Shown here: positions 125 to 46,200 of the stretch, piece after piece | Numbering within the stretch: the first letter of the stretch is position 1 | Layout: every line of letters begins with the position of its first letter | Virus record (IMG/VR): IMGVR_UViG_3300032132_000211 | Location: 1 to 64,000 of that record | Strand: one strand, 5' to 3' | DNA: 64,000 nucleotides | From: a virus | Position numbers and translations under genes: made by a program | The notes under the pieces: generated by a model | What the model was told of the DNA's origin: nothing | The model's input: the letters and a program-made list of their open reading frames with translations, nothing else | Database searches by the model: none

Positions 125-2203
125 ATGAAACAAGTAATCATACCCATTTTAATCGCATCTATAGTAGCCTTTGCCCCCACGGCAGAAGCTACGTTACAAG
201 ACCCAGTCACGCAGCGTGCCTGTGGATTTGATGTTAATCATAACGGCATAGTTGGCGAAGCTGGCGAATGCGATTTCTGCGACGGATCAACTACTGATCC
301 TGATGGGGATGGGCGAGATGAGAGGATTGCTTATGTAGATTGCGGGTTCGGTATTGACTCCTCCATCTGCGGTTCCCCCGATAACCCGTGCCAGACCATT
401 AAGCACGCAAAGATCAGAGTCTCTTCCCTTTCCCCCTCCGACGAGGAGTGGATCATTTGCTTCCAAGGAAATACCTGCCGGTTAGAAAATTTCAAACCTG
501 GCAAATCAGTTCGTAACGACACAGAAGATTGTCCGTCGTACGGTGCGGAACCTGCGGGCACGGCTCAATGCTCTAAGAACCCTAACCGATTGATCGGCTG
601 GGATGCAGACGCGGATGGCGAGTACCCGCCGTACGACTCGGACGACAACTCGATCATCGTTGGCAGGACTCAAGCCTCTGGTCAGGCCATGATTGACAAC
701 AACGATTCCAGTCCCGTCCTCGACTTCAGCATGGCTCACTTTGAAGTGAATGAATACCTGTCGTTCGATCAAAGCCCCTCGACCAAAAGCAACGAAAACA
801 AATCCTTCATCAACCTTGGTGGGGGTTTCAACCGATTTGAGATGCACGACTTCTACGGATTCGGTATCCTCAAGGAACAGCCTAAGTGTGGAGGTGTGAG
901 GTTCTTCTCACTATTCATCACGCAGCCAGACGAGCCAGCCCACAATATGTTAGTTCGCCACGTTGAAACACCTGAACGAGGCGGCTACGGTATGCGTGGT
1001 GGTCACGGCCCGACCAAAACAGACGGCGACACTGGCCCCTACATATGGGCTGGATACGAAGCCACGATGCACGCTTGCGAAGGTAGCGAGTGTCCTCCAG
1101 ACCCACAGCCCGGTGACTCTACATGGTGCAGCAGCGCATTGACTTCTATGAGTGCAACCAACTGCTTAGGCAAGATGTGGGGTGACATCAGCAACATTTG
1201 GTACTCGGACATAGCCTGTGACAGTAAGCTAGGTGAACTCTATAAACAGACCGGGGGCAAGGTTGCCACGCATAGCATGTTGACTATCAACGACAACCAG
1301 CAGAACATCAATATCACACGAGCGTACGCCCAGGGCTTCAAGGTTGCTATTACCTTCCAACCTGATCTCGATGGCACCTCTTTCGTTCACAGGAACGTAG
1401 ATGACATCACCATCAAGGACAGTTGGTTTCACTGGAACGCTACTTCAGCCGCTCTGCTCCACAACAGCAGTGGCACCGCTCTGGGTACGGCTCTACGGCT
1501 GGAGCGTGGAAAGAATGGTCAAGGGAACGTAGGCCACACCGAGAACCTTACTGTGCAGAACTGCGCGGTGACATCCGAGGGTAGGATAGGTGGGTTTGTT
1601 CACGATCTGTCTGGCACGTTCTCTGGGTCCAATGCTCCTGGAGTACACACCTTTGAGAACATCACGATCAACGCCGAGCAGCACAACAGCAAGACCGATC
1701 AGAACGGTATGTTCATGTTTGGTGAGACTACTAACAACAGGCCCAGCAACCCTGTAGATAATATTGTAATAAGGAACATCGTGTTCCAAGGTGAGTCTGG
1801 CGATGGCCGAGACAGAGCCATCACGGTGACTCCCGATGTTGTCTCTGGTATGCAGTCATTCACGATAGACGAAATCAGCGCGGATGCTGACTTCACCTTC
1901 GGGTGGAACAACACTGAATACAGCACGGCTGCTGCCTTCGCTATGGCGAGTGGTAACAGCTGTGCTAACACGAACACCTGCGACACTGTGTTCCAGTCGG
2001 ATAGGTGGCATGTAGATTCTTCCGACACCTGCGCTCGTGGAAGGGGTGCTGGCGGGGACATTCTGTCATCGTGGATTCCTTATATCGGCACAACCCCATT
2101 AACCACCACGACTACCACCACGACTACTACTACCACTACCTTAGCGACTGGGAACACCCCGACCCTAAGCGGCGTAGAAATCATGGGAGGCATACACGAA
2201 TAG
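125..2203 (+). CDS. Exported beta-rich protein with Ca-loop motifs and poly-Thr linker
   Basis: The 692-residue protein starts with a clear Sec signal peptide (MKQVIIPILIASIVAFAPTA then EA, cleavage near residue 22). Residues about 33-70 are cysteine-rich with Asp/Asn-rich loops (DVNHNG, DPDGDGRDE) like calcium-binding EF-hand loops. The body has many short Asn-rich segments such as IKDSWFHWN and HTFENITIN, typical of right-handed parallel beta-helix proteins (pectate-lyase-like or tailspike-like folds). Near the C-terminus 13 consecutive Thr codons (2102-2140) form a linker before a short tail ending GGIHE. A good AAGGAG precedes the ATG. The signal peptide argues that it is exported rather than assembled in the cytoplasm. 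No catalytic motif was recognised; a polysaccharide-binding or depolymerising role is only an inference. Confidence 0.7.
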   Translation: MKQVIIPILIASIVAFAPTAEATLQDPVTQRACGFDVNHNGIVGEAGECDFCDGSTTDPDGDGRDERIAYVDCGFGIDSSICGSPDNPCQTIKHAKIRVSSLSPSDEEWIICFQGNTCRLENFKPGKSVRNDTEDCPSYGAEPAGTAQCSKNPNRLIGWDADADGEYPPYDSDDNSIIVGRTQASGQAMIDNNDSSPVLDFSMAHFEVNEYLSFDQSPSTKSNENKSFINLGGGFNRFEMHDFYGFGILKEQPKCGGVRFFSLFITQPDEPAHNMLVRHVETPERGGYGMRGGHGPTKTDGDTGPYIWAGYEATMHACEGSECPPDPQPGDSTWCSSALTSMSATNCLGKMWGDISNIWYSDIACDSKLGELYKQTGGKVATHSMLTINDNQQNINITRAYAQGFKVAITFQPDLDGTSFVHRNVDDITIKDSWFHWNATSAALLHNSSGTALGTALRLERGKNGQGNVGHTENLTVQNCAVTSEGRIGGFVHDLSGTFSGSNAPGVHTFENITINAEQHNSKTDQNGMFMFGETTNNRPSNPVDNIVIRNIVFQGESGDGRDRAITVTPDVVSGMQSFTIDEISADADFTFGWNNTEYSTAAAFAMASGNSCANTNTCDTVFQSDRWHVDSSDTCARGRGAGGDILSSWIPYIGTTPLTTTTTTTTTTTTTLATGNTPTLSGVEIMGGIHE
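2102..2140 (+). repeat. ACN trinucleotide run encoding 13 threonines
   Basis: Thirteen consecutive ACN codons (ACC, ACG, ACT mixed) encode an uninterrupted poly-Thr stretch in the 125-2203 protein. Codon mixing means the DNA is not a pure microsatellite, so length change by slippage would be in frame and slower than for a perfect repeat. Poly-Thr stretches are common linkers and possible O-glycosylation targets. Confidence 0.9.
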
Positions 2204-2242: not shown

Positions 2243-2262
2243 GTGGGCGAGGTAACGCCCAC
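2243..2262 (+). promoter_or_regulatory. 5' leader hairpin before the dockerin gene
   Basis: GTGGGCG-AGGTAA-CGCCCAC is a perfect 7-bp stem with a 6-nt loop directly before the ACAGGAGA ribosome binding site of the gene at 2277. It could modulate translation or protect the 5' end. There is no following T run, so it is not an intrinsic terminator. Confidence 0.55.
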
Positions 2263-2276
2263 AGGAGAAACAAAAC

Positions 2277-2795
2277 ATGATTGAATTAGTATTAACAACT
2301 GCCCTACTGTGTGGCGACGTAAACGAGAATGGCTCTGTAACAGCAACCGACGCCCTGATGGCCCTATCTGCGGCCACCAACGGAGACTATGTTCTGGAAG
2401 CAGACGTAAATTCGGACGGCGAAGTAACCGCCGCCGACGCTCTCGGTATCCTTTTGGGTGCTGACTATTGCCCTATCGCAGTAACAGCCTGCACCCCTGA
2501 GCCTGTAGAGGCTGTGACTTTCAAACTCGACTACGTAGGCGATGGGCCTATTGGCGAGCTTGCGGATGTTAAATGCACTTTTAACTCTGAGTATACCCTA
2601 GGAGTAGCAGCCAACCACGTAGAAGCCCCTACGCATCCGCATGACAACTACCTGTGGCCTGATGGGGATCATTACCTTTCAGTTACAGCTATCTCGCTAA
2701 AGCCTGTCGTGGGTGAAATCGTGACCTGCTACCTGTACTCTGGCACTGAAGTTGAGCTTACAATTCACGAAGCATGCCTTTTTAAGGACTGTTAA
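2277..2795 (+). CDS. Dockerin-type double EF-hand protein
   Basis: The 172-residue protein has a short hydrophobic N-terminus (MIELVLTTALLC), then two near-identical calcium-loop repeats about 30 residues apart: DVNENGSVTATDAL and DVNSDGEVTAADAL, followed by ILLGADYC. This is the signature of a type I dockerin module (D-x-N-x-D/N-G-x-x-x-x-x-D-x-L). Dockerins bind cohesin modules and anchor enzymes to scaffolds. The C-terminal ~100 residues form an all-beta, cysteine-containing region (FKLDYVGDG ... SVTAISL ... GEIVTCYL) that vaguely resembles a cohesin-type beta-sandwich; that second assignment is weak. Export is suggested by the N-terminus but no canonical cleavage site is visible. Dockerins are rare in phages; the partner could be host-encoded or another protein in this window. 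Confidence 0.75.
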   Translation: MIELVLTTALLCGDVNENGSVTATDALMALSAATNGDYVLEADVNSDGEVTAADALGILLGADYCPIAVTACTPEPVEAVTFKLDYVGDGPIGELADVKCTFNSEYTLGVAANHVEAPTHPHDNYLWPDGDHYLSVTAISLKPVVGEIVTCYLYSGTEVELTIHEACLFKDC

Positions 2796-2845: not shown

Positions 2846-3109
2846 ATGACTTTGGATAAAGTACTAGCAGCACTGACCATTGTGGCAATTATAGCAGGGG
2901 CAGGTATGACCTATCAAGCAATGGCAAATGATGTAAATGATACCGCTAAGAACCTAGAACAGCTATCCAACGAGACTATAAAAATTCAAGAGAATCTTGG
3001 CTCATTAGTAAACCAACATGAGAAAGAGGCTCTAATAGAGAAGAACAAGAGACTGAAGAAAAAGCTTTCCGCCCTACAAGGCGGCGAAACTCCCCCTGGA
3101 AATCCGTAG
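2846..3109 (+). CDS. Small membrane-anchored coiled-coil protein
   Basis: This 87-residue protein has one N-terminal membrane segment (about residues 5-25, VLAALTIVAIIAGAGMTY), then a charged helical region (about 30-80) with heptad-like spacing and a Lys-rich stretch (KNKRLKKK), ending in Pro/Gly. The topology resembles inner-membrane spanins or small phage membrane effectors, but it lies outside the lysis region and function is unknown. The start is set by the leaderless promoter: the ATG is 5 nt from the -10 box and has no RBS. Confidence 0.6.
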   Translation: MTLDKVLAALTIVAIIAGAGMTYQAMANDVNDTAKNLEQLSNETIKIQENLGSLVNQHEKEALIEKNKRLKKKLSALQGGETPPGNP

Positions 3110-10919: not shown

Positions 10920-12056
10920 TTAAATCCATCCTTGTTTTATTGTGTCTACTATATATTCTCTGTCTTCCGGTGTTACCCACCAACCTACTGGTATACATAC
11001 TATCTCGTCGCCAACTATGTCTAAGTTTGGTAGGAAAGATTTAAATTCATTTACGCAGCTATATATGTCGTTGCGCTCATGTACTCTGCTTGTAGTTATA
11101 CCTTTGTCCGCGAGTGCGGCCATAAAGGACTCTCGGTTCCGTACCCGCAAGGTGTACAACCAATAGGATGACGTTGTGTCGTCAAGAACCTCTGTAGCCA
11201 AACCTTCTGGGAGATTAGCGTCATAATATTCTGCGTTCTCCAAATGTACATGTAGCAAGTTGTTAACGTGCTTTAGATTCTCTATACCTATGCAAGCGTT
11301 GATGTCATTCATATGGAACTTGAAACCGTATTCTTCTACGTCATTCTGGCACCGCATATCCTTCTGCGTCCCTTCTCTATCCATGCCGTACCATCTTAGG
11401 AGCTTAGCCCGTGTGTAAAGATCCCTGTTTGGACACACCAGCATCCCACCGTCACCGCAAGTAAGATGCTTGATAGCCTGAAAAGAGAATGTTGATAGGT
11501 TGCCCGTGAAGCCCACTGATTTGCTTTTATAAGTGCTACCAAAAGCGTGAGCGCAGTCTTCAATCACGGCTGGCTTGAATCCCCACGTATGCAACGACTT
11601 CTCCTGTATCTTTGCGAGCCGGTCCAGGTCTACGGGCGCACCTCCCCAGTGGACTACCATGATAGCCTTAGTGTCAGGCCCAATCTTTCTTTCAAGATCA
11701 CCCATATCCATGTTTAGCGTTTCTGGGTCAACATCAACCCACTTAATCTTGTATCCATTTGCTAGTATGGGTGCGTTCGTAGCAAAGCAAGTTAAAGGCG
11801 TTGCCAGCACAGTATCACCCCGCTGCATACCTTGCCATTTACCGTGGGGCTTCTTTAACAAATGTAGAGCCAAGTGCTCGGCTGAGGTGCCGGAGTTAAC
11901 CGTGACCACCTTTGGCTCGTCAAACCTGCTTCCTAACAGCTTTTCAAATTCATCTACTTTAGGACCTTGCCCTATGTATCCTGTAGACATAATCTCTGCG
12001 ATTGCTTCAACTGATGCTGGTGCGCAGAACACCTTAAATAATGGTATATCTCTCAT
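10920..12056 (-). CDS. DegT/DnrJ/EryC1-family sugar aminotransferase
   Basis: The 378-residue PLP enzyme carries GTSAEHLALHLL (cofactor phosphate binding), IEDCAHAFG with Asp167 and the PLP lysine Lys196 in SFQAIKHLTCGDGG. This family transaminates keto-sugar nucleotides to amino sugars. Context with an epimerase/dehydratase, two GNATs and several glycosyltransferases supports synthesis and transfer of a modified amino sugar. The start overlaps the end of the oxygenase gene by 4 bp. Confidence 0.88.
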   Translation of the reverse strand: MRDIPLFKVFCAPASVEAIAEIMSTGYIGQGPKVDEFEKLLGSRFDEPKVVTVNSGTSAEHLALHLLKKPHGKWQGMQRGDTVLATPLTCFATNAPILANGYKIKWVDVDPETLNMDMGDLERKIGPDTKAIMVVHWGGAPVDLDRLAKIQEKSLHTWGFKPAVIEDCAHAFGSTYKSKSVGFTGNLSTFSFQAIKHLTCGDGGMLVCPNRDLYTRAKLLRWYGMDREGTQKDMRCQNDVEEYGFKFHMNDINACIGIENLKHVNNLLHVHLENAEYYDANLPEGLATEVLDDTTSSYWLYTLRVRNRESFMAALADKGITTSRVHERNDIYSCVNEFKSFLPNLDIVGDEIVCIPVGWWVTPEDREYIVDTIKQGWI

Positions 12057-12733
12057 GCAAGTCTCTCCTTTTTATACAACGTGGAATGGCTCTTTGACTT
12101 CTCTTTGTCAGGCCGGTTTTTGGTGTAGTAATACAACGCTATTGAGTCTCTAGTCCTGTTCGTTGGGCAAGTTAAAGGTTCAGGGTGCCCGTGGTACGAG
12201 GTATCCGTAGTGTTAAATATGACTGCTCGGTTACATATAGGTAGTATCCTACTCTTGCACTGTTTGAGGCCCCACAGCTCTAAATGGCCACCATATTTTT
12301 CTTTCCAATCTTCATTTAAATACAGGAGGACATTTACTCTCCTGTGCAACTCCCCCAAAAAATTGTGGTCAGCGTGTACATTTAGAAAGCCGCCTCTCTC
12401 TATACGATGAATACCTGATCCGGTTAAAGCCAAGTCTGGTATAAGCCCGTGTATTCCAGTCAAGACCTGTAGCTTAGTGATAAACTCCTTAGAATTAAGA
12501 TAGGTGACGGCACTCCTGGTGTGCTGGCCCATGAAGTCTAGGTTAGATAGCCCCTGTTTAACACCAGTACTTCTCTTCTTGCTGCTCCACACACTAGTTA
12601 CCTTAGTGCGGCGCAGCTCCTCTACGACATCACCTATAATACTGGCTTCTAGGAAGTTGTCTATGACAGCATGTGGAAAAGGATCTGCCACTGCATAATT
12701 TACACGTAGTTTAATTATATCAGCACAGAGCAT
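12053..12733 (-). CDS. 2-oxoglutarate/Fe(II)-dependent oxygenase
   Basis: 226 residues with the prolyl-4-hydroxylase-like double-stranded beta-helix pattern: HADHN (His120, Asp122), LLYLNEDWKEKYGGHLELW, the second iron histidine in SYHGHPEPL (His181 or His183) and the 2-oxoglutarate arginine in RDSIALYYY (Arg195). Such enzymes hydroxylate sugars, amino acids or lipids; in phages and in polysaccharide clusters they often sit beside glycosyltransferases. The gene overlaps both neighbours by a few bases. Confidence 0.85.
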   Translation of the reverse strand: MLCADIIKLRVNYAVADPFPHAVIDNFLEASIIGDVVEELRRTKVTSVWSSKKRSTGVKQGLSNLDFMGQHTRSAVTYLNSKEFITKLQVLTGIHGLIPDLALTGSGIHRIERGGFLNVHADHNFLGELHRRVNVLLYLNEDWKEKYGGHLELWGLKQCKSRILPICNRAVIFNTTDTSYHGHPEPLTCPTNRTRDSIALYYYTKNRPDKEKSKSHSTLYKKERLA

Positions 12734-13551
12734 TAGTAAACTCCTTCTCCAGCTGTGGCAGCGTCTACAATTTGTCCGTTCTGGTTTTTATAGTGCAACA
12801 TATTCGATCCTTTCCCTATCTGTGCTATGAGCTTACCGTCCATTTGCGCCTGCGGCCAGACAAGCTGCATCTCCTGTGCTTTTGATTCAAACCTATTCTG
12901 TGGCGCGGGCCACTTCATATTCTTGCCCCAAGAGTTTCGTAAGCTCCAGTATGTAGAGCACAGCATATACTTGTACTCAGTGGCCTTCTTTAGCACTTTT
13001 GGTCCTGCAGCCACGACATCTGGGTTAGCGTCGTACAGGTCTATGTACTGCTGTAGCCAGTTATCTTGTTGTACCACACACGCCTCATTCATAAAGAATG
13101 TGAACTCATAATTGTGTTTTAAAAGATCGTGAGCGAGGTGGTGCCCACCCATGTCTTCTCCAACATTGCCACGACTTATAGTTACTTTATTGGTCTTGTA
13201 TGGCACCCTGAATGAGTCGATCATAGCATTTACTGTGGATACGTTAGAGCCTCTAACATCCGCCCGGTTCAAGGCACCAACATCGTATGTGTTTTGTACA
13301 AAGTATATATCAACATCGCACCCTGGAGGGTGCTCCTTGTAGCTCTGGAGGAACACGTCTAAACGTTTCGGGTAATGAGCGAACACCACCAATGCCATCC
13401 TTGGCTTTGTCTCCACCTTATCCAGATCTAGGTGGCCGTGCCAGTACAAACCATCGACGTTGCACGCCGGGCAAGTAACTACGTGCTGGGCTGGGTACTC
13501 AATAGGAGAAACCTGCTCACAGGACTTACACCTGTATTCGTAAAGCGCCAT
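12733..13551 (-). CDS. FmdB-type zinc ribbon fused to a GT-A-like domain
   Basis: 272 residues. The N-terminus MALYEYRCKSCEQ ... TCPACNVDG is a FmdB/CxxC-CxxC zinc ribbon (Cys8, Cys11, Cys27, Cys30). The rest (from about residue 50) resembles a GT-A glycosyltransferase: MALVVFAHYPKRLDVFLQSY, EFTFFMNEACVVQQDNWLQQY in the position of the acceptor/metal site, and WPQAQMDG near the end. A canonical DxD was not found, so catalytic activity is uncertain. The fusion of a small zinc ribbon to a glycosyltransferase-like domain is unusual. Confidence 0.6.
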   Translation of the reverse strand: MALYEYRCKSCEQVSPIEYPAQHVVTCPACNVDGLYWHGHLDLDKVETKPRMALVVFAHYPKRLDVFLQSYKEHPPGCDVDIYFVQNTYDVGALNRADVRGSNVSTVNAMIDSFRVPYKTNKVTISRGNVGEDMGGHHLAHDLLKHNYEFTFFMNEACVVQQDNWLQQYIDLYDANPDVVAAGPKVLKKATEYKYMLCSTYWSLRNSWGKNMKWPAPQNRFESKAQEMQLVWPQAQMDGKLIAQIGKGSNMLHYKNQNGQIVDAATAGEGVY

Positions 13552-14465
13552 TATACTAGACTCCTATAGTACTCTACAGTCTCAGCCACACCGTCTTCAA
13601 GGGAAGTCAGTTCTGGTTGTTTGCCATCGTACAGCGGAGCCAGCGTGCTAGGGTCGCCAAGAACAACTGAGTTCTCAGGTTCGCCACCGCGCATCGGCAC
13701 GTAGTTAATGCTTCCCGAACCGGCGCAGGCGATCACGATTTCAGCGATCTCCGTAACCGTAGTGTCCCGGCCAGTGCCAGCATCGAACTTAAACTGTGTG
13801 TCTTGGTCCTTTTCTGGTTGTTGAGCGTACTGCCCGTGTTCAACCGTTCCGGCCCGGACTAGTACGTCTGCGACATCCGCGACGTGGATCATGTCCATGA
13901 TCTGTGAGCCGTCACCGTAAACAGTGATTGCCTCTCCTCGCAGAGCGGGGAGTACAAAGTTCGGCATGATCTTCCTAACTGGCTTGGACTTCTGTCCAGG
14001 GCCGTAGGCGTTCAGTGCTCGGACAACTGAGATTTCAGTTCCGTGCTCTTGATTAAACATCCAGGCGAATCTCTCAGCCGTGGTTTTTGAAATTGAATAA
14101 CTGTTGTTCATCCAGTAGTTACCTACGGTGATATACACGCATTTCTTTTCGTAGTTCCTGCAAGCTTGAAATATATTCAAACTGCCAAGAATGTTCACTT
14201 CAATCGCGGGCCTGGGCTCGTTGATTGTCTCTGAAGTACCCAAGACACCAGCGCAGTGAAACACTACGTCGTGAACGGCAACTGCTTCGTTGACCGCTGT
14301 AAAGTCTCTGATATCTCCTACCCACCAATTCACCTTCTTGTGCTCTGCGAAGAAGTCGTTGCCGTTAAACCTGTCAAAGACAGTGACCTCATGCCCCTCT
14401 TTGAGAAGCTTATCCACTGTATACCCACCTATAAATCCATTACCACCTGTCACTAAAGCCTTCAT
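13551..14465 (-). CDS. NAD-dependent sugar epimerase/dehydratase
   Basis: 304 residues from ATG 14465, chosen because GAGGAG lies just before it and it overlaps the upstream stop as ATGA. The extended-SDR hallmarks are present: GGNGFIGG (residues 7-14) for NAD binding, VFHCAGVLG, and the catalytic Tyr123-x3-Lys127 in SYSISKTTAERF. NAYGPGQ and the YGDGSQIMDMIHVADVA block are typical of GalE/RmlB-type nucleotide-sugar enzymes. It likely supplies the sugar nucleotide used by the DegT enzyme or the glycosyltransferases. Confidence 0.88.
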   Translation of the reverse strand: MKALVTGGNGFIGGYTVDKLLKEGHEVTVFDRFNGNDFFAEHKKVNWWVGDIRDFTAVNEAVAVHDVVFHCAGVLGTSETINEPRPAIEVNILGSLNIFQACRNYEKKCVYITVGNYWMNNSYSISKTTAERFAWMFNQEHGTEISVVRALNAYGPGQKSKPVRKIMPNFVLPALRGEAITVYGDGSQIMDMIHVADVADVLVRAGTVEHGQYAQQPEKDQDTQFKFDAGTGRDTTVTEIAEIVIACAGSGSINYVPMRGGEPENSVVLGDPSTLAPLYDGKQPELTSLEDGVAETVEYYRSLV

Positions 14466-15247
14466 ATTACTCTCCTCACCCAATCCGGGTATTCAGTTGC
14501 GTTTTTGTGGCCCTTAGTAAACCACTTTTTGAGTTCCACATCATCAGTAACACGGTTATGTACGCCCCGTCCGCTTTCAATCTCTTCAGGACTCCAAATA
14601 TAAGCAGCTTTTCGTGCGTGCTCTTTTTTAATAGTATTCCAGTCAAGTCTGTGCAGATGCAATAGAAGTAAATTAGGGTCCGGTATGTCCGCCATTCCAC
14701 GATGATGCCCCACTTTCCAGCGTTGGAACTCACGCAGAACCAAGGGCTTGCACATTGCCTTGCTCTGCCACCATTTAGATCTTTGCTCAAGCAGTGGAGT
14801 GTTGGACCAGTCCAGAGCCGCCTCTCCTTCAGCTTGAATTATTTCAAAGCCACTAGTAGTGACTACCTTTTTCTTATTCCTATCTAAAAAATCCCGTAGG
14901 TCTTCATACTTTTCTAAGTTTGGAACCATGATCTCATCTATGTCTGCGTGTATAACCGTTTTATACTCATTCAAAAGAACGGAAGCTGCAGAGTTCATAG
15001 TGTCGATAATAGAGATATGGTCAAACGCATAACCTCCCTTTACGGTTCCTGAGTAACCCGCTTGGCCGAAGTCAATCGTGCGTACATTTATACTATCCGG
15101 TACGTGTGCCTCTACACAACCATCTGTGCTGCCGTTGTCGTAAATATAAATGTCCTCGTCGTCTATGTTCTTTCTGTAGTAATCCATGAACGTTGGCAAC
15201 ATTATGTTCTCGTCTTTTAGTATAGTTACTAAGGCCGTTTTACCCAT
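14462..15247 (-). CDS. Glycosyltransferase (GT2/GT92-like)
   Basis: 261 residues beginning ALVTILKDENIMLPTFMDYY, with IYIYDNGSTDG (nucleotide binding) and the metal-binding HADIDEIM (Asp102, Asp104). LHLHRLDW towards the C-terminus is typical of the Glyco_tranf_2_4/GT92 group that adds galactose or related sugars. It overlaps both neighbouring genes in the ATGA/TAATG style of the operon. Confidence 0.85.
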   Translation of the reverse strand: MGKTALVTILKDENIMLPTFMDYYRKNIDDEDIYIYDNGSTDGCVEAHVPDSINVRTIDFGQAGYSGTVKGGYAFDHISIIDTMNSAASVLLNEYKTVIHADIDEIMVPNLEKYEDLRDFLDRNKKKVVTTSGFEIIQAEGEAALDWSNTPLLEQRSKWWQSKAMCKPLVLREFQRWKVGHHRGMADIPDPNLLLLHLHRLDWNTIKKEHARKAAYIWSPEEIESGRGVHNRVTDDVELKKWFTKGHKNATEYPDWVRRVI

Positions 15248-16548
15248 TAAACCAGACCCCCACGTATATAAAACTTCTCCTCGTGCTCCAGTACCAAGTC
15301 CTTATCTATGAAACCACAGTTAATAGCGTCATGCAACTGTCCGACCCACAGGCTTTCCAGTGGATGTCCGTGCTTCAGCCAAGGTTGGTTTTGCATATTG
15401 GTAAAGTGTAGGAGCTTTGTTTCGCCTTCTGTGTATTTATCCAAGCAATTCCAGCAGCTGTCAATCGACTTATTCACGTCACATATCTCAAAATCAAACA
15501 TAAGACTCTCGTATGTAAGCTCGCCGCTGTCCAACATCTTAACTATCTGGTGTATGTCCCAGTTTATATTACCATCTAAAAGCAGCATCGCGTAATCAGA
15601 AGTTTTCCACCCCTCGGCGTCTAGGCGGCCTACCGCTAAGACATCAGAATCATTGAAAGGCATTTTAAATACCTTGGCAATATCACCGAACACCATCATG
15701 TCTGAGTCCAGGTACATTGAGACACGCTTAGTCAGACTTGGTATCCAAAAGCGCTGAAAACTGAATGGGGTTCTAGGCCCGTTCCTAGGCAGCTTAGGCG
15801 CTTCATGTTCAATCTCTCTGGTGTAAAGTGGAACCACCTCTGTAAGCTTATCAGTGTGCTTCTTGATAGTGTAGTCCAAAACCAACGTAGGGATCAGCTG
15901 CTTCTCAGTGGCCCCGACAAAAATCTCTAGAGGTTCAGTTAAGCCAAGATTTATAAACTTAGCTTTATTAGCGTGCTCAAATCGTGTGATGCTGTCAAAC
16001 TGCTTATCAAACGTAGTGTGTCCGCCAGTAAACGGGGTCAGGTCTGAGAACGACGGGTCGTAAGAAACCTTGCCGTCTATTCCTAGAGCGAATACCTCTT
16101 TCTCACCGAACGCTGTAAGCATGGAAAAGATAGTATCACCGCTAAAGAAGCCACTTCTGATCTGATCCCCAAACTCCTTAGCTGTCACATGTCCTGTTGA
16201 CAGGTTGTATGTGTACACTCTGCCCTCGTCAACCATTTTCTTTAATACTGGAAGCTCTTTGGTAAAGTCATTTAAGGTCTTAGCAGTTCCTCTGAACTTT
16301 ATGTGCGGGCACCACGGAACCACAAGTATCTCACAGTTCGCGTAGATAGAGTCTTGGCAGTCTTCAAATACGTCGAAGTCAATCAAATGCGCGATGGTAG
16401 CCTTCTGCTCACGTATAGCGTGATTAAGCGTTATAGTCGTGTACTTGCTTAGTAGTAGATTCTTTCTCTTACTAAACGACGGGCCTTTACCCAACAAAAG
16501 TATGGGCTTCTTATTACCCTTTAACCAGTCAGAAAATGGTTTAATCAT
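15247..16548 (-). CDS. Two-domain protein: DUF115-like plus GT8-like glycosyltransferase
   Basis: 433 residues. Residues about 10-200 (ILLLGKGPSFSKRKN, VFALGIDGKVSYD, then TPFTGGHTTFDK) look like the DUF115/Maf-type Rossmann domain associated with glycosyltransfer to flagellin or surface sugars. Residues about 208-420 are GT8-like: IFVGATEKQLIP, the DxD in MYLDSDMMVFGDI (about residue 278) and LLHFTNMQNQPWLKHG. The two-domain arrangement suggests that sugar recognition and transfer are linked. Assignment of the first domain is moderate. Confidence 0.7.
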   Translation of the reverse strand: MIKPFSDWLKGNKKPILLLGKGPSFSKRKNLLLSKYTTITLNHAIREQKATIAHLIDFDVFEDCQDSIYANCEILVVPWCPHIKFRGTAKTLNDFTKELPVLKKMVDEGRVYTYNLSTGHVTAKEFGDQIRSGFFSGDTIFSMLTAFGEKEVFALGIDGKVSYDPSFSDLTPFTGGHTTFDKQFDSITRFEHANKAKFINLGLTEPLEIFVGATEKQLIPTLVLDYTIKKHTDKLTEVVPLYTREIEHEAPKLPRNGPRTPFSFQRFWIPSLTKRVSMYLDSDMMVFGDIAKVFKMPFNDSDVLAVGRLDAEGWKTSDYAMLLLDGNINWDIHQIVKMLDSGELTYESLMFDFEICDVNKSIDSCWNCLDKYTEGETKLLHFTNMQNQPWLKHGHPLESLWVGQLHDAINCGFIDKDLVLEHEEKFYIRGGLV

Positions 16549-17213
16549 CTGTGTTCTCCTAGTGGCGGTCCGGCCAAGTATTTCAGGTCGTGCTTTTTAT
16601 CAAAAATTTCATACTGGTATCCATCGGAAGCCAAACGCTTATCAGTCCAACCACCGTGCTCAAGCCACAGAGTTCGTTTCATAACTAGCTGCAAGGCGTC
16701 TATAGCGTTGACTACCACGTTGTCACCGGCAAGTACCTTAACTATATTGCGGTTAATCTTTATTGGTCCGTTCTTAAAAACAGACTCCTGAATGGCTATT
16801 CGGCCAGCGTACTTGTCAAGGTGCTCTGTTAGGCCGTGCATGTACTTAAGTACACCGCGATCAGTCATGATTATCGGGAATGTAAACCCATCTATATCAC
16901 CTTCACACTCTATAAAGTCCGCCATTCGTTTAAGCGTCCCTGGGTATAGGATGTTGTCAGCGTTGAAATGCAGAATGTAGTCATGTGTTGCATGATGAAT
17001 TCCAGCGTTACGATTAGTATGTCCCCAGTCTCCTATAAACTTAGGTGGTACTTGTATATCCACGGGCAACGGAACATCTTCCAGAAGAGGGCCGTCGTGG
17101 TAGCACAGAATCTCGTAGTCTGTAAAATCCTGCGTGAGTAAGGAGTCCATCGAGTCCAAGAACTGAGCGTGTGCTACCACACCTTGATAGTGTGGCACTA
17201 TGATAGAAAACAT
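16545..17213 (-). CDS. GT2-family glycosyltransferase
   Basis: 222 residues starting MFSIIVPHYQGV, the standard GT-A opening, followed by DYEILCYHDGP, GHTNRNAGIHHA and the acceptor-side motif LHFNADNILYPG (DxN in place of DxD). It is short for the family but complete over the catalytic fold. First gene of the glycosylation island, 6 bp after the SNase gene stop, with GAGGATAACC before the ATG. Confidence 0.82.
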   Translation of the reverse strand: MFSIIVPHYQGVVAHAQFLDSMDSLLTQDFTDYEILCYHDGPLLEDVPLPVDIQVPPKFIGDWGHTNRNAGIHHATHDYILHFNADNILYPGTLKRMADFIECEGDIDGFTFPIIMTDRGVLKYMHGLTEHLDKYAGRIAIQESVFKNGPIKINRNIVKVLAGDNVVVNAIDALQLVMKRTLWLEHGGWTDKRLASDGYQYEIFDKKHDLKYLAGPPLGEHR

Positions 17214-37228: not shown

Positions 37229-37237
37229 ATTATACCA
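37229..37237 (-). promoter_or_regulatory. Extended -10 (TGGTATAAT), leaderless start at 37222
   Basis: On the - strand TGG-TATAAT, TATAAT 37234 to 37229; 6 nt to ATG 37222. It overlaps the 3' end of the glycosyltransferase gene, giving the tail-completion genes a separate start of transcription. No clear -35. Confidence 0.55.
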
Positions 37238-39635
37238 CACTCCCAGGATTTCCTACCTTCACATGCGCTGCAGCCAGTGGCTGCAGCTTGGTGTAGATCT
37301 CCCTTACGGAGTTCAACATGTCGGCATCTGCGTGCATACCATCGGTACACTTAATGATCTCGAAAGCCTCGGTGATCTTCATCAGACTCAGCTCTCTCCA
37401 GGCAGCAATGAGATCCGGGTTGACGCTCACCGCTGTACGGAGAAGCTCCTCTGCCCTAGGCAGGTTCCCGTAGTTGCGATAATGCAAAGCAAGCTCGAAC
37501 ATAGCCTTGGAATTGTCTGGGTTGTCTACAAGCTCTAGTTCCAGCAACTCTGCGTAGACAGCTAACTTCTTATGAATCTTCTCATCAGGCTCCAAGAACC
37601 CCGTGTTAACAGACTTGATGTTGTAATCCTCTGAGTGAATTTTAGGGTAGGGGAGGAGTGCCTTGTCCAATGTCTCATGTACCCTACCACTGTAGAAGTA
37701 CTTAGGAGAGTTCTTGAAAATCCTAGGCTGGAAGGTTGTTACCCTGTGGCCTGTCTTCTGTACGTTCTCTAGACGCCAAACAGCAACCTCTGGACCTTTT
37801 GGAAGCATGGCTATAATCTTATGTAGCCCACCTTCTTCCAGCCGCTCATCGGGGTCGATGTGCATACAATACTTGGAGGTAGACAGCTCGATACATCTGT
37901 TTCGTACAGCGGAGAAGTTCTTGTTTAGATCCATCTTCGTGTAAGGAACACCTACCATATCTAGGTTCTTCATAGTGTTGTCTGTTGACCCGGTGTCGAT
38001 AAGAATGAACTCATCCACAATGGCGAAGTACTGCATCAGCATCAGGCCAATATTCATTTCTTCATTGAGCATCATTGTGTTAACAGATAGTGTCCAAGGT
38101 TTCGGGGCCATCATTGTCAGGCCAGACTCGTTAGTGAGGTGGTCGTATCCGTTGTCTCCTACTAGAGACTGCTTAATAGAGTCTGGGGTGGTGTCGATCT
38201 TTTCGTACCACTCCTTCTTTTCTTTGGTTCTCTCGAAATCAATATACCCGTAATGGTCTACCGACAAGTTACAAGGCATGCTACAGCTCATTGGAATACT
38301 GATTGGGATTCCGCCTGTGTGAAGACCTGGATCGTCAACAGACATCTTTGGACGTAATTTAGGTTTAAACACGTTCTTCCACATACGCCGCATGAACATC
38401 GTGCCCCAGTTGCCGTCAGTTCTGGCAAGCTCCTTGGAGCGCCAGAAGTTGTTGAAGTACATTTCGTAGCACAGAATGTTTGGGTCCAACGGATGCATCA
38501 GCGTCTGGACACGTTCTGCTTTAGCGCCCTCCGAGAAACACTCATCATGGTCCATCATAATGCACCAATCGAAGTCTGCGTCGTAAGCTGCTTGTAAGAG
38601 GTTCAGCCGATCCCTGGTTTCGCTAAAGCCAGCTGACTTTTTAACTGGAATGAACTGCCGTAGCTTATCACCGAACATTTCCTTAGCGATTTCGTAAGTC
38701 AGCAGTTTTGACCTGTCAGATAGAATTATAACACCATCAACCAGCGGCAAGTTCCTAGCTGCACAGTCACGGAATAATTGCAATTGTTCCTCGTCGTCAA
38801 TTTTAACGCGCTGTGTTAAAAGCAATGTCTTCGTATCTTTTTCAATATACTTATTAACGTAAGTAGCCCAGTTAGCTACCCCGCGAGACAGTTCGGGGAA
38901 AAGCTTGTCAAGAGTTTTGTGGCCCTTGTGGTAGATAAAGCACGTAGGCGAGATTACTGACGCGAAGCCAGCCTCTGTAGCCCTGTGGACAAAGTCGTTA
39001 TCACAGAAACCACCTGGGGAGAATCTCTCGTCAATTCCGCCTATCTTTTCATAGACAGCACGGGTCATCATCAAGCAAAAGCCGCTCAGGAAGCCTACCA
39101 TAGAGTAGTCTACATTCCAAACACTGCCGTCGTTTTGTTGTCCCTTCTCTGCTTGCAATCTACGAGTTTCTCTATCCAGATCGGCTATTACTTTAGGAAT
39201 GTCTTTGATCGTAGCCTCCTGCAAGCTTTGGTGAGACTGCATTCCAGCTGCGTTATTAGACAGCGGGCCTACGAGACCTACGTTGTCGTGATGGAAGTTA
39301 GGAGTCGTAATGCCCCTTAGCATACGCTCCAGCCAGTTTTCACAAACTACCGTATCGTCATTGAGCCACACAATGTACTTGCCTGTTGATGCTGCCATGC
39401 CCTGATTTGTTGCTGTACAAAAGCCTTTGTTGTCCTCGTTGGTGATGACCTTTAAGTTCTTTACAGTCTTGTTTTCTGCAAGGTATTCTAGGAATTTTGG
39501 AGTGTTGTCTGTTGAGCCGTTGTCTACTACGATTAATTCTAGGTCGTCTAAGTTTGAACAACTTACTATTGATTCTGTACACTCAATTAGATCTTGAACA
39601 TTATCCACCGTTGGAATTATTACACTAAATTTCAT
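37230..39635 (-). CDS. Multi-domain glycosyltransferase with TPR end
   Basis: 801 residues with three GT-A-like regions. Residues about 1-260: GT2 with FSVIIPTVDN, LIVVDNGSTDN, YIVWLNDDTV and RFSPGGFCDNDF. Residues about 300-500: a second region with DWCIMMDHDECF (DxD-like). Residues about 515-690: TLSVNTMMLNEEMN, FILIDTGSTDNT, YCMHIDPDERL. The last ~100 residues are TPR-like (AMFELALHYRNYGNLPRAEELL). Large multi-domain glycosyltransferases occur in phages with glycosylated surfaces. It sits in the structural module and is expressed late, so virion proteins are plausible acceptors (inference). Confidence 0.8.
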   Translation of the reverse strand: MKFSVIIPTVDNVQDLIECTESIVSCSNLDDLELIVVDNGSTDNTPKFLEYLAENKTVKNLKVITNEDNKGFCTATNQGMAASTGKYIVWLNDDTVVCENWLERMLRGITTPNFHHDNVGLVGPLSNNAAGMQSHQSLQEATIKDIPKVIADLDRETRRLQAEKGQQNDGSVWNVDYSMVGFLSGFCLMMTRAVYEKIGGIDERFSPGGFCDNDFVHRATEAGFASVISPTCFIYHKGHKTLDKLFPELSRGVANWATYVNKYIEKDTKTLLLTQRVKIDDEEQLQLFRDCAARNLPLVDGVIILSDRSKLLTYEIAKEMFGDKLRQFIPVKKSAGFSETRDRLNLLQAAYDADFDWCIMMDHDECFSEGAKAERVQTLMHPLDPNILCYEMYFNNFWRSKELARTDGNWGTMFMRRMWKNVFKPKLRPKMSVDDPGLHTGGIPISIPMSCSMPCNLSVDHYGYIDFERTKEKKEWYEKIDTTPDSIKQSLVGDNGYDHLTNESGLTMMAPKPWTLSVNTMMLNEEMNIGLMLMQYFAIVDEFILIDTGSTDNTMKNLDMVGVPYTKMDLNKNFSAVRNRCIELSTSKYCMHIDPDERLEEGGLHKIIAMLPKGPEVAVWRLENVQKTGHRVTTFQPRIFKNSPKYFYSGRVHETLDKALLPYPKIHSEDYNIKSVNTGFLEPDEKIHKKLAVYAELLELELVDNPDNSKAMFELALHYRNYGNLPRAEELLRTAVSVNPDLIAAWRELSLMKITEAFEIIKCTDGMHADADMLNSVREIYTKLQPLAAAHVKVGNPGSVV

Positions 39636-40275: not shown

Positions 40276-41235
40276 TTAGTTACAAGTTACTGCTAACAGT
40301 TCTACTAGTATTCTTAGATCATCGTAGTCTGTCGTGCCGTTAAAATCAAGATCGCAGCTAACATTATTTGGAATAGTTGTGCTTGGCAGTAGCGTCACAG
40401 TTGACGTGGTGGTTGGGAACGAGGAGTAATTGTCTCCTGGTGTCCCGTCTACATTTGTAAGGTAAATCAAATCAATTCCTGGGGACTGCTGCAGGCCATC
40501 AGCTTCTCGCTTGTAGATAGTTAGAGTGTGAGCGCCTTCCGAAACTAGGCCCAGATCAACAGGCTTGAGCCTAACGTCATCGTAGCCATCGCCATCCCAG
40601 AACCATTCATCGAATACTGGGTTGTTGCCGAGCCTAGTGTCAAACGAATCAAAAGTCATCCAAAATGAGTTGGCAGCGTTATCGTCGCCCCCTGATACAG
40701 CCTTCATTCGTATCCACAGCTTCCAGTTTCCCGATGCTGGTATGTCCACGGTGTATTTCACGGAGTCTTGTCTCTGAGAGCCGTTCTTGTCGTCACCAGC
40801 TCCGTTCGGGTAAACAACCGTTCCTGACAAAGCTTCATCATCAAACCCTACTGAGAACGAGCCGCTTATTCCTGTGAAGTCTGCGCTGTCGATATAAAAG
40901 GAATGATCCTCTACTACAGCAAACGCTTCTGCTGGAAATGTCTTGGTGTTAGAGGCCAGTACTACGCCCTCTGGCATAAGGGCTAAGATGCCCACCGTTA
41001 CTTCCTCGCTTATGATGGGGAATGTATCTGTTTCAAATACTATATCGCCTGCTGAGTTTATACCTAGACCTGGGTCAACCTCTGTGACGTACTCCCAATC
41101 TTCCTGGCTGACAACCACTACATGAGAGTCTGCGCCAACACTAGGTTGGAAGCTAACCTTAAACCAGTTGTTGTCACTAGCATAGGCAGAGGTGGCCAGT
41201 AGCAGGCTTAGGGCAAACGCAGTCAGTTTCTTCAT
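40276..41235 (-). CDS. Exported carbohydrate-binding-like protein with half dockerin
   Basis: 319 residues from ATG 41235 (AAAAGGA 9-10 nt upstream). Sec signal peptide MKKLTAFALSLLLATSAYA. Residues about 100-260 resemble a galactose-binding-type beta-sandwich module (YTVDIPASGNWKLWIRM, GAHTLTIYKREADG, GIDLIYLTN), common in CBMs. A Thr/Ser linker (TTTSTVTLLPSTTIP) leads to a single EF-hand-like loop CDLDFNGTTDYDDLRIL, half of a dockerin. It thus shares the linker-plus-Ca-loop end with the 125-2203 and 2277-2795 proteins. Export into the periplasm argues against assembly in the cytoplasmic virion. Confidence 0.7.
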   Translation of the reverse strand: MKKLTAFALSLLLATSAYASDNNWFKVSFQPSVGADSHVVVVSQEDWEYVTEVDPGLGINSAGDIVFETDTFPIISEEVTVGILALMPEGVVLASNTKTFPAEAFAVVEDHSFYIDSADFTGISGSFSVGFDDEALSGTVVYPNGAGDDKNGSQRQDSVKYTVDIPASGNWKLWIRMKAVSGGDDNAANSFWMTFDSFDTRLGNNPVFDEWFWDGDGYDDVRLKPVDLGLVSEGAHTLTIYKREADGLQQSPGIDLIYLTNVDGTPGDNYSSFPTTTSTVTLLPSTTIPNNVSCDLDFNGTTDYDDLRILVELLAVTCN

Positions 41236-42132: not shown

Positions 42133-43221
42133 TCACTTAGAACCGAGGTTATTTTTGTCATTAGAATCAATGTCTGCATCGGAAGTTTCACCTGATATAT
42201 CTGTCTTATCGTGTACCTCTGTGGCCGAATTAGTCGGCCTAACGTCTATGTCTTCATCTCTCGCAGAGGCTGAAAGCTCAAAGAAAGGTGAGGCAACAGC
42301 CGGGCTGATGAGATCCAGCAGAATGTCTATTATCGTTGTGCTGCTACCAGTAGAGCTGACTATTACCTTTCCATCTATTAGCTCAGTTAGAGCTTCTGTG
42401 ACCTGTAACTTGATATCTACCAATTCTGTTGCACCGCTAGTAACAGCCACCTTTGAATCAAATACCTCTGTGTCAGCATCCCCTATTTGAACCTTACTGT
42501 CAAAGACTTCTGTTAAGGAATCTTGTACTAGAAGTTTTGAGTCAAATATACTAGTCACTAGATCTTGTACCGCCAATTTAGCGTCTATTATGCTAGTATC
42601 AGCATCTTTTAATACTAATTTACTATCTATTACATTCGTAATTGTATCGGCTAATAGAATTTTCGCGTCTATCACTTGAGTATCTGACAAGCTGACAACT
42701 ACCTTTGAATCAAATACCTCGATATCATCATCTGCGATTACTACTTTGCTATCGAATACCTCTGTATCTGTATCGGCCAGGACGATCTTACCGTCGATGA
42801 CCTGCGTGTCTGCTAGGCTGATAATTACCTTTGAATCAAATACCTCGATATCGTCATCTGCGATTATTATCTTGTTATCAAATACTTCTGTGTCGGCATC
42901 CGCGACTATAACTTTAGCGTCTATTAGATCCGCTAATGCTTCTACTACAATAGCTTTCAAATCGAATACGTCTGAAAGGCTGTCTTGTACTATTACCTTT
43001 GAATCAAAGACCTCGGTATCGTCGTCTGTGATTACTATCTTGTCGTCGAACAGTTCTGTGCTTGCGTCTTGCACTATCGCCTTGGCGTCTATGATATCAG
43101 TTAGATCATCTTGGACTATAGCTTTCGCGTCGAACACGGTCGTAAGGTTTTCCAATACGATTATCTTCGCGTCGATTAACTCGGTTGATTCTTCTCCGAC
43201 ATTGAATAAAAGTGTTAACAT
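42133..43221 (-). CDS. Tandem 14-residue repeat protein (20 copies)
   Basis: 362 residues from ATG 43221 (TAGGAGA upstream). After ~15 residues it consists of 20 units of 14 residues with consensus V-(F/I)-D-(S/A)-K-V-I-V-x-D-x-x-T-E, for example VFDSKVIVQDSLSD and VIDAKILLADTITN, ending near residue 300; then a charged, Asp/Ser-rich tail (ISGETSDADIDSND). The alternating hydrophobic pattern with fixed Asp/Lys suits a beta-solenoid or stacked fibre. No signal peptide, so it stays in the cytoplasm and could be part of the virion. Its place between exported proteins and the connector is unusual. No family recognised. Confidence 0.8.
   Translation of the reverse strand: MLTLLFNVGEESTELIDAKIIVLENLTTVFDAKAIVQDDLTDIIDAKAIVQDASTELFDDKIVITDDDTEVFDSKVIVQDSLSDVFDLKAIVVEALADLIDAKVIVADADTEVFDNKIIIADDDIEVFDSKVIISLADTQVIDGKIVLADTDTEVFDSKVVIADDDIEVFDSKVVVSLSDTQVIDAKILLADTITNVIDSKLVLKDADTSIIDAKLAVQDLVTSIFDSKLLVQDSLTEVFDSKVQIGDADTEVFDSKVAVTSGATELVDIKLQVTEALTELIDGKVIVSSTGSSTTIIDILLDLISPAVASPFFELSASARDEDIDVRPTNSATEVHDKTDISGETSDADIDSNDKNNLGSK
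42280..43170 (-). repeat. 42-bp tandem repeat array
   Basis: The 14-codon units of the 42133-43221 gene are visible as degenerate 42-bp repeats. Some neighbouring blocks are nearly identical at DNA level: three-unit blocks of 126 bp containing ADDDIEVFDSKV and SL(A/S)DTQVID occur twice in tandem, which indicates recent duplication by unequal recombination. Boundaries are approximate. Confidence 0.8.
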
Positions 43222-43230
43222 CAATATCTC

Positions 43231-46200
43231 CTATGGCGTGAAGTCACAACTCCATGTCGCGCAGTCGAGATTGTTGGTGCATGGTCGTGGGCGAATACCT
43301 GCGGAGCAGACATTTGCAGTGCAGACTCCATCGTGTACGGTTACGCCATCGTTATCGAAACAGGCAACAGCCTGGTCTACGACTGTATCGTATCCGGTTT
43401 GGCTCCAGTGTACCGCGTCGTTGAATAGGTCAGCGCGTGGGCCTGTCCCTGCCCTGACGTAAGCCTGGAACGCATCTTCGTGGGACATAAAGTGGTCCCC
43501 GTTGTCGTGGGCTGTGGTCAAGATGTATTCTTGAAGGTGTCGCTGGGCTTGGTTGTGGGCGCGGAAGGCGTTTGCGCCCTTGCCGGTGTACACCAGGTCA
43601 CCGGATGGTTGAGTGCCCCAAATGATCTCTACGGCTGACGCTCCGGTTCTAGCCGCTGCAATCGACCTGATTGTATCAACGCTGCGCTTGGCCTCTGCTA
43701 TCGGGTTCGACCCGACACACAATCCAGAGCAACTGTTGGTATTCAACTCACCATCTATTAGCCAGTCACCGTTCGGCGCGCCTGGTGCGTCAACCCGGTT
43801 GAACGCTTGTAGGGAAATGGACACAGCACAGGTGCCAGAAGTACACTCGCCTATGCAAACACTGCCTACGCAAGTCGCGTCTGCATAGGCAACCTCTGTT
43901 TGGCAATCGGCATCCGCTACACACGGGATCACCGTTTCGCAGTCAGCGTCTGCAGAGCAGGTCGCGCATGTGGCAGCGTCGGTCGTGGACAGGAAGATGT
44001 CTTTCGTAGCGTTGCTGTTGAAACAATATGTGTCACCAAGATCCGCGCCACCTAATGCCCACCCACCGTTGGTTCGGTTCAGTTGGCAGGGGTAGCCGTT
44101 GTCCGCTCCTTCGCTCAGGCAGTAGCCTGGGTACTCTTGGCAAGACCCGCCGCCTGCACATGCGAATGAGGTGCCCGTGCAGTCATCATCACAGCAGCGG
44201 CCATGATCTGTGCCGCCGACACAGTACTTGCTGCTGGCGATGTTGCCACCCGCGAGTGTGTTGTACCCACCAATGATCCAGACGTAATCGGCGTTGGCTG
44301 CGCTGCCTTTGCGTACGCGGCAGTTCATGTCGGTGCCTATAGTTCCATCAAGCGCCTGCGTTAAACTAGTCTCGAAGTTACCCAGAGTCGTGCTGCCTCT
44401 CGTGCAGAGCGTGATGTTGTTGAACGCTGCAAGGTTGGAGAGCAGCAGGCCGTGGAACGATCCTTGGTTCGCTGTGCTGTCACCAAACAGAACGAGCGTA
44501 TTCACTTCATCACCGTTCACGTCATCGAACGCGCCGGTCAGAACAACCGGGTCCATCTCGACATCTATAGTCGCGCCCATCTCAGTGAAGTTAACATTGC
44601 AGCTTGAGCCTTCGCACGCGCCATCTGTAGCGGGGCGAAGTGTTATCAAATCTACGTCACTGTCCGACCACCCCGTGGTACCTGGGTAATCCAATACGTG
44701 GTGGTCCACGGCCAGGATCTCTGTCGCGTCCGCTTCATCCGATACGTCAAACCAGCCGGACGAGATGTAGGCCACAGACCCACCACCCGAAGCGTTGGAA
44801 GTCGCGGTTGAGTCCGCTTCTAGTGTGAACGAGTCGGCGTTCACAATCGTCATCGCTCCGGTGACTTGCAGTTCTGATGCTGACAGCCCACCGAAAGCAG
44901 TAGCGCCCTGAAGCGACACGATGGCTCCGTTGGCAAGGCCATGTCCGGTTTCGTTGATAGTGATCGTAGCGTCCGTGTTCACCGTGTCGATTTGGTCTGT
45001 TCCCAGCAACACTCGCATCCCGGTGCAGTCATCTCCCTCAGCTACGCTGTTACTGACGCAGATGCCCGTGTTCTTGCCAGAGCCCGCGCCCTTGTTCGAG
45101 TTGTCCTTGACGTAGGAGTACAGGTGCATCGATGCGTTGTCGTTCAGATCGGCAGCGTCGTTGGTGGTAAGCGTGAGGTCTTGCAACTCAAGGTGCTCGC
45201 CTTCCACGCTGCCAGCAGCACCTACGATGAAGTCGGTGTGGTCTGGAGTCGTAGCCGTAGCCCATTCGTCAACCGTGAGGTGTAGCGTGCTGCCGATACC
45301 GCATGTACCAGTACAACCGAAGTCGCTGTCCGCGTTCGTCGCGGCAGACATCCCGTCAGGTGCGAAGTCTACCAAGCGCACAACAGCCATGCCTGAGTCG
45401 GAAGCGTTGTCCACGAGTATGTCATCGTAGTCAAAGTACATCTTGCTGCCGAGTAGCGGCAGTGGGCCGGACGCGTGAGCGCCAAAGGAGATGCCGTTCT
45501 GTTTGTTGTTCACGAGATCCTGACACTCGTTCTCAGAGGGCGAGCAGTTGACACAATCGCTATTCGAGTTGCAAGAGTGACCCCCTCCGTCGCAGTTACC
45601 TGGGCAAAGCCCAGTGTCCGCTAGTCCAGACCCCATCTCGATGCCGTTGACGGTCAGTGTGACTCGCGTCTGTTGAGCGGTGCCCTCGGTGTCATCCTCG
45701 ACTATCAGCACCTCTACCCATTCGCCTGCTGCCAGGTTGCCCGGTGTTCGCGCTATGTAGTCAGACACACACCATTGCTCACCACCAGTGTCAGCTAGGC
45801 ATACGTCGTCGCAAGCGCCTTGTGGGCCTGGGTTCTCGCAGATCTCATCATCGACTCCACAGTCCGAGTCGTCGGTACATGGTGTGCAACTGATTCCGTC
45901 GTTGTTACCACCAGAGCAGACGTTGCCTGCGTAGAAGTGGTACGCGGCTAGAGAGTAGGTGTCTGTGCATTCGCCAGACCCGCTATTGCAATCTGAATCG
46001 GTGGTACAACTGGTTCCTATGTCGGTCCCGGCTTTACATCGCTTGTCAGAGAATCCGTTCGGTAGTAGTGAGCGTTCCGCTTGTATGCTGGTTCCGGGGC
46101 CAGTACCGTCTTGCGAGAACCGTATGATAGAGGGCCATGCGCCCGAAGCATAGGATCTCCAGTCTACGATCTTGAACAGGAAGTGGACCGCTGTGTAGTC

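Follow-up and report, generated by a model that had tools for sequence, protein, structure and literature searches.

The gene at 2277-2795 of the viral record IMGVR_UViG_3300032132_000211 (the window analysed here comprises 64,000 nucleotides of that record) encodes a small protein in which an intact type I dockerin, established at the level of sequence by profile matches and by the presence of all the usual calcium-loop residues, precedes a second domain that likely, if short of proof, belongs to a family of cohesin-like domains found beside dockerins in uncultured ‘Deltaproteobacteria’. The reading we favour, tentatively and with somewhat less than even confidence, is that of a host-derived adaptor composed of a dockerin and a divergent cohesin. 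The record is that of a tailed phage, with a portal, terminase large subunit, head protein and protease recognised by PHROGs and a tape-measure-type PhageMin_Tail match in Pfam. The gene and its parts are laid out as follows:

2277-2795, plus strand: dockerin gene, 172 aa, with a type I dockerin at the N-terminus and a beta-type domain at the C-terminus
2243-2268, plus strand: perfect 7-bp inverted repeat GTGGGCG/CGCCCAC, with the AGGAGA ribosome-binding site directly after it
2313-2444, plus strand: two-repeat type I dockerin module (PF00404, 36.9 bits; bacterial dockerin profile, 52.9 bits)
2469-2747, plus strand: likely divergent cohesin-like domain, matched in two co-linear segments that an extra stretch separates

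The reading frame opens with an ATG behind the ribosome-binding site (2263-2268), and residues 13-56 of its product match PF00404 at 35.7 bits (E 9.6e-9), the curated Pfam cut-off being 22.9 bits. A six-frame search of the whole 67,998-base record with the same model recovered this dockerin at 36.9 bits and no second one, and a profile built from related bacterial dockerins scored it at 52.9 bits, the next best stretch in the window reaching 4.8; together these scores argue that the call is not a product of chance. Both repeats quoted in the original prediction are present in the translation, and at loop positions 1, 3, 5, 9 and 12, where we take the calcium-binding residues of dockerins to lie, one reads D-N-N-T-D and the other D-N-D-T-D, so that both loops are complete by sequence reading and the claim of two canonical type I repeats is confirmed. 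Structure prediction of the dockerin part, called for beforehand, returned two helices at a block pLDDT of about 64-79, with weak matches to EF-hands (Z about 2.3-2.5). The protein is absent from the list of Sec signal peptides produced by a crude heuristic, which did list 125-2203, 40276-41235 and 46643-48619. No relative of the whole protein or of its C-terminal domain was found in viral_contigs, and a tblastn search of the phage collection also found none. The inverted repeat upstream (GTGGGCG-6-CGCCCAC, 2243-2262) has a second copy with two mismatches at 13129; 0.09 matches with up to two mismatches are expected by chance.

The second domain is less firm. Evidence for its identity comes from a domain of about 115 aa, here termed COH, that lies beside dockerins of uncultured ‘Deltaproteobacteria’; the search was seeded from a protein of the genome OFTM64 (locus L127) whose domain right after the dockerin resembles the phage C-terminus, and three seeds were iterated to 9 and then 41 copies. 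The resulting profile ranked the phage gene first among 639 stretches of the window, at 12.6 bits (E 0.0037, the next stretch having an E-value of 1.4), over residues of about 65-113 and 130-157, and only one of 4000 shuffles of the domain scored as high. Removing the nearest member from the profile left the phage domain in first place (E 0.0062); removing all OFTM64 members left it first narrowly (7.1 vs 7.0 bits) with an E-value of 0.19. Every one of 4142 stretches taken from viral loci and from seven bacterial ones scored below it, the best, at 10.5 bits, being one picked by the COH-family pattern. Alignment of the phage domain to the family with hhalign gave an E-value of 0.0086, with none of 300 shuffles scoring as high, at a probability of only 4.7%. 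Two cysteines invariant in the family are both found in the phage domain, within DVKC and EIVTC.

Direct searches with or against the phage domain returned little. It has no Pfam match and is not classed with the Pfam cohesins, PF00963 being absent from both the protein and the record; nor does a true-cohesin profile match it directly, and a PDB sequence search with the domain alone found nothing credible. AlphaFold2 modelled it at a pLDDT of about 32-60, and Foldseek and VIA-align, applied to this low-confidence model, yielded beta-barrel matches with Z of at most 5.1, no cohesin being listed among them. A scan of viral_contigs with the COH pattern produced four stretches, judged to be chance. 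On the profile evidence we regard membership of the bacterial dockerin-associated COH family as likely. The ‘faint cohesin-like features’ of the original prediction survive in part, as a possible remote kinship through the bacterial family, but not as a Pfam cohesin in the protein or its record.

As for the family itself, none of nine COH members has a credible Pfam match, and COH profiles found nothing credible in the PDB. Alignment of a 27-member family to twenty PF00963 cohesins with hhalign, however, gave a probability of 89.1 and an E-value of 2.3e-6 over 100 columns; its score of 38.6 was reached by none of 300 column shuffles (best 17.9) and by neither reversed control (12.7 and 14.1). 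In the reverse direction, a true-cohesin profile run against 719 stretches, 30 of which hold the domain, placed COH members in ranks 1-12. On the alignment, its controls and the reverse ranking, ‘divergent cohesin-like domain’ is the most fitting name for the family, as far as sequence comparison can define it. Five of six dockerin-bearing genomes contain 93 copies in total (28, 20, 12, 28 and 5), and the sixth has none. In 18 stretches fetched for holding the domain there are 30 COH open reading frames, 19 with at least two copies and 10 also with a dockerin, in orders such as COH-COH-DOC and COH-COH-COH-DOC-COH and commonly with Thr-rich linkers; seven more frames in these stretches carry a dockerin only, several of them adjoining COH frames. 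Read from domain order, this arrangement follows a scaffoldin-like logic. Across these loci (L196-L213) the domain occurs in scaffoldin-like arrays, and COH and dockerin-only frames lie near each other in the genomes G002, G003 and G040. Three bacterial proteins have a dockerin followed by COH with 8-11 residues between them, close to the order in the phage. Among 297 drawn genomes, 293 have no COH match and the four positives all fall among the five that are dockerin-positive (Fisher p 1.6e-8). This co-occurrence, like the copies counted in the dockerin-bearing genomes, arises partly by construction, because the profile was itself built up from sequences flanking dockerins in these very genomes, which may also be close kin.

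The bacteria in question were reached through the dockerin. The pattern CGDxNxxGxVTATDA occurs in seven stretches of genome_contigs, all in the Deltaproteobacteria MAGs OFTM64 and OFTM47 or the uncultured LJ-5-9m_bin-0318, three genomes with 28, 17 and 7 matches to PF00404. When 297 genomes were drawn from the phylum to which OFTM64 belongs, the phage protein found matches at E of 0.001 or below in 5 of them; identity between phage and bacterial dockerins is about 35-65%, with the dockerin being all that most alignments span. Pfam cohesins, which occur in 27 of the 297 drawn genomes, are absent from all three genomes behind the pattern loci; among dockerin genomes none is listed for G001 and G040, none is found in G003, and a single weak match in G264 falls short of the cut-off. 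Thr-rich linkers precede the dockerin or half dockerin in phage and bacterial proteins alike, and two further phage proteins, encoded at 125-2203 and 40276-41235, share domains with dockerin-bearing bacteria. These resemblances support a host-like origin for the phage dockerin, and we infer that the modules probably derive from a host among such uncultured ‘Deltaproteobacteria’.

Those two proteins and the gene downstream make up the relevant surroundings:

125-2203, plus strand: upstream neighbour, 692 aa, with a signal-peptide-like start and a C-terminal Thr run
2846-3109, plus strand: downstream neighbour, 87 aa, with a hydrophobic N-terminal segment followed by a charged coiled-coil-like part
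40276-41235, minus strand: tail-region protein, 319 aa, with a signal-peptide-like start
40276-40356, minus strand: degenerate half dockerin CDLDFNGTTDYDDLRILVELL, 3.1 bits, not significant alone

For the upstream neighbour, a search of 99 genomes yielded a homologue in OFTM64 alone (32% identity over residues 7-643, E 4.2e-60), where it is flanked by genes that by eye resemble a polysaccharide deacetylase and a glycosyltransferase, in a genome rich in dockerins. It has no Pfam domain at E 0.1 and no relatives in viral_contigs. Its calcium-type loops (DVNHNG and DADADG), earlier counted as possible docking elements, align with similar loops of the bacterial homologue and are not dockerins. A ‘beta-helix’ description of this protein was no more than an impression, the single-sequence model having a mean pLDDT of 34.8, and was set aside. 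The downstream neighbour has sub-cut-off Pfam matches only. In the tail region, residues of about 125-271 of 40276-41235 are common to two bacterial dockerin proteins (37% identity, E 1.2e-20; 40%, E 5.3e-13), found in two of six genomes; both homologues have a full dockerin after the shared domain, and at that position the phage protein has a degenerate half repeat behind a Thr/Ser-rich linker. The proposed ‘half dockerin’ at the end of this protein thus occupies the place of its homologues’ dockerins, although at 3.1 bits it is not significant alone. With the loops of 125-2203 being something else, the suggestion that several phage proteins might dock to one partner shrinks to a basis of one good dockerin and one degenerate half.

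Other parts of the record can be noted briefly. The minus-strand tail-region proteins at 40276-41235, 46643-48619 (by the heuristic) and 43231-46641 (by eye) have Sec-signal-like starts, which seem unusual for particle proteins. Sugar genes at 10920-17213 and 37230-39635 of the window (a DegT aminotransferase, an epimerase and several glycosyltransferases) suggest glycan modification, and 42133-43224 encodes a 363-aa protein of short repeats, such as TEVFDSKVVI, with no clear family. The record contains no TSP3 repeats. Relatives of the portal and of UvsX were found at three and six distant loci respectively, and none of those nine records has a dockerin.

How exceptional is a dockerin in a virus? 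Two narrow motif scans of viral_contigs returned 10 and 58 stretches, giving 68 open reading frames, of which 52 match PF00404 at E 0.001. Their companions include collagen-like repeats (7), RCC1 (4), GH108 (3), GH25 (2) and amidases; the three GH108 frames may represent look-alike loops, and some of the records may derive from a host genome or a prophage. Within this set, four related proteins starting with MGR (L002, L005, L010 and L011) have RCC1-like repeats with a dockerin insertion, and three amidase-type lysin-like frames (L003, L008 and L009) have dockerin repeats at their end. In a 107-kb virus record (L109:2594-4586), a dockerin gene whose product looks like a lipoprotein is followed, two genes further along, by one for another lipoprotein-like protein that has additional dockerin-like loops. 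Of the 68 records, 50 were tested for Pfam cohesins, and one of these has a match above the cut-off. A single 251-kb viral record (G325; loci L076 and L125), which may be host DNA, combines a dockerin-motif frame with a Pfam cohesin in a frame resembling a protein with a signal peptide and membrane anchor. In the phages collection of 50,697 records, a lysin-type dockerin query matched five records and two other dockerin queries matched none. Among the part of the matching literature covered, no paper had a title or abstract on phage-encoded dockerins, and on novel cohesin-like domains a single paper, on Ruminococcus, matched. A 2012 report on Vibrio phage VvAW1 notes similarity of gene 40 to dockerin type I and suggests a bacterial origin (PMC3558961). 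The original statement that phage-borne dockerins are rarely reported is therefore fair as regards print, but by motif and profile they are not rare in sequence data.

The function we propose, at the less-than-even confidence given above, is that of an adaptor. Both modules would have been acquired from a dockerin-bearing uncultured ‘Deltaproteobacteria’ host. As a recognisable signal peptide is missing, the protein would leave the cell at lysis or within the particle; outside the cell its dockerin, loaded with calcium, could bind a cohesin-like domain of the host or one presented on a protein of the phage, and its own cohesin-like domain could capture a dockerin-bearing protein. The phage protein would in this way link phage products to the host’s network of surface or secreted proteins, or rewire that network. 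In cellulosome bacteria, single-cohesin adaptor scaffoldins link proteins in a comparable manner. Against an adaptor role, the bacterial versions look secreted, whereas the phage version has no recognised signal peptide. A bolder extension, which we consider rather unlikely, is that some uncultured ‘Deltaproteobacteria’ run an overlooked dockerin-cohesin system and that the phage took a mini-adaptor from it, plugging its own products, such as the tail-region protein with the half dockerin, into the host surface network.

The strongest competitor, itself somewhat unlikely in our estimation, is that the dockerin acts only as a calcium-stabilised folding or adhesive module of an accessory or particle protein and is followed by an unrelated phage beta domain, without any cohesin-type binding. 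The missing Pfam cohesin in the record and the failure of the phage domain against true cohesins speak for such a module, as do the fibre-like (RCC1, collagen) and lysin contexts of viral dockerins and the scarcity of Pfam cohesins over the cut-off in the tested dockerin-motif records. It fits poorly with the ranking of the second domain above 638 other stretches of the window and the 4142 from elsewhere against the COH profile, the order and the cysteines being preserved. A protein whose two modules bind each other, whether as a closed, inert monomer or in head-to-tail chains that build a fibre or coat, appears distinctly less probable; the proximity of a dockerin and a cohesin-like domain in one chain, and the recurrence of that order in three bacterial proteins, would suit it, and yet to our knowledge the dockerin of a scaffoldin in cellulosome bacteria is normally not bound by its own cohesins.

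Two further explanations take the host-like character of the protein as their starting point. It might be a decoy that, once expressed or released, occupies host cohesin-like domains or dockerins and strips surface proteins, for example exposing or blocking receptors in superinfection exclusion. The modules are indeed host-like and the neighbours resemble host secreted proteins, but no signal peptide was recognised, and we judge this very unlikely. Lower still we place a recently captured, non-functional host fragment carried as moron cargo: no relatives turned up among the viral and phage sequences searched, as would be expected of such cargo, but the frame is full-length with a good ribosome-binding site, every calcium-loop residue is intact, and an identity of about 50% to bacterial dockerins has been reached without stops.

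The adaptor reading, if correct, would matter beyond this phage. Dockerins in bacteria without recognisable cohesins have no known partners, and a phage gene has here led to a cohesin-like family that is invisible to Pfam, present in dozens of copies in dockerin genomes and arranged in scaffoldin-like order. Were binding to be demonstrated, these dockerins would gain a partner and the phage protein would offer a very small natural unit for testing it; the gene would also exemplify the use, by a phage, of a protein-docking code from bacteria.

Set against known systems, the phage dockerin has the two-repeat build of PF00404, exceeds its curated cut-off and keeps the calcium-loop residues, and differs from the related bacterial dockerin profile in an inter-repeat segment that is two residues shorter and without the cysteine pair found there. 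The COH family aligns to PF00963 over 100 columns, whilst both its members and the phage domain miss the Pfam model. VvAW1 gene 40 likewise belongs to a phage and resembles type I dockerins, in that case on a reported BLAST similarity only. The 107-kb virus also has a small dockerin gene, with a lipoprotein-like signal start and no second domain. The cellulosome frame of the original prediction does not fit: no enzymes were found and no link to cellulose, the lack of the latter being the reason why a cellulosome reading was rejected, and the related bacteria have no Pfam cohesins (none of three genomes), yet many divergent cohesin-like domains. A cellulosomal scaffoldin has several cohesins and a carbohydrate-binding module, whereas the phage protein, at 172 aa and with at most one cohesin-like domain, falls outside that class. 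The adaptor scaffoldins of cellulosome bacteria consist of one cohesin and one dockerin; the phage protein differs from them in sequence and host, and with its putative cohesin-like domain would combine the same two kinds of module in a small protein.
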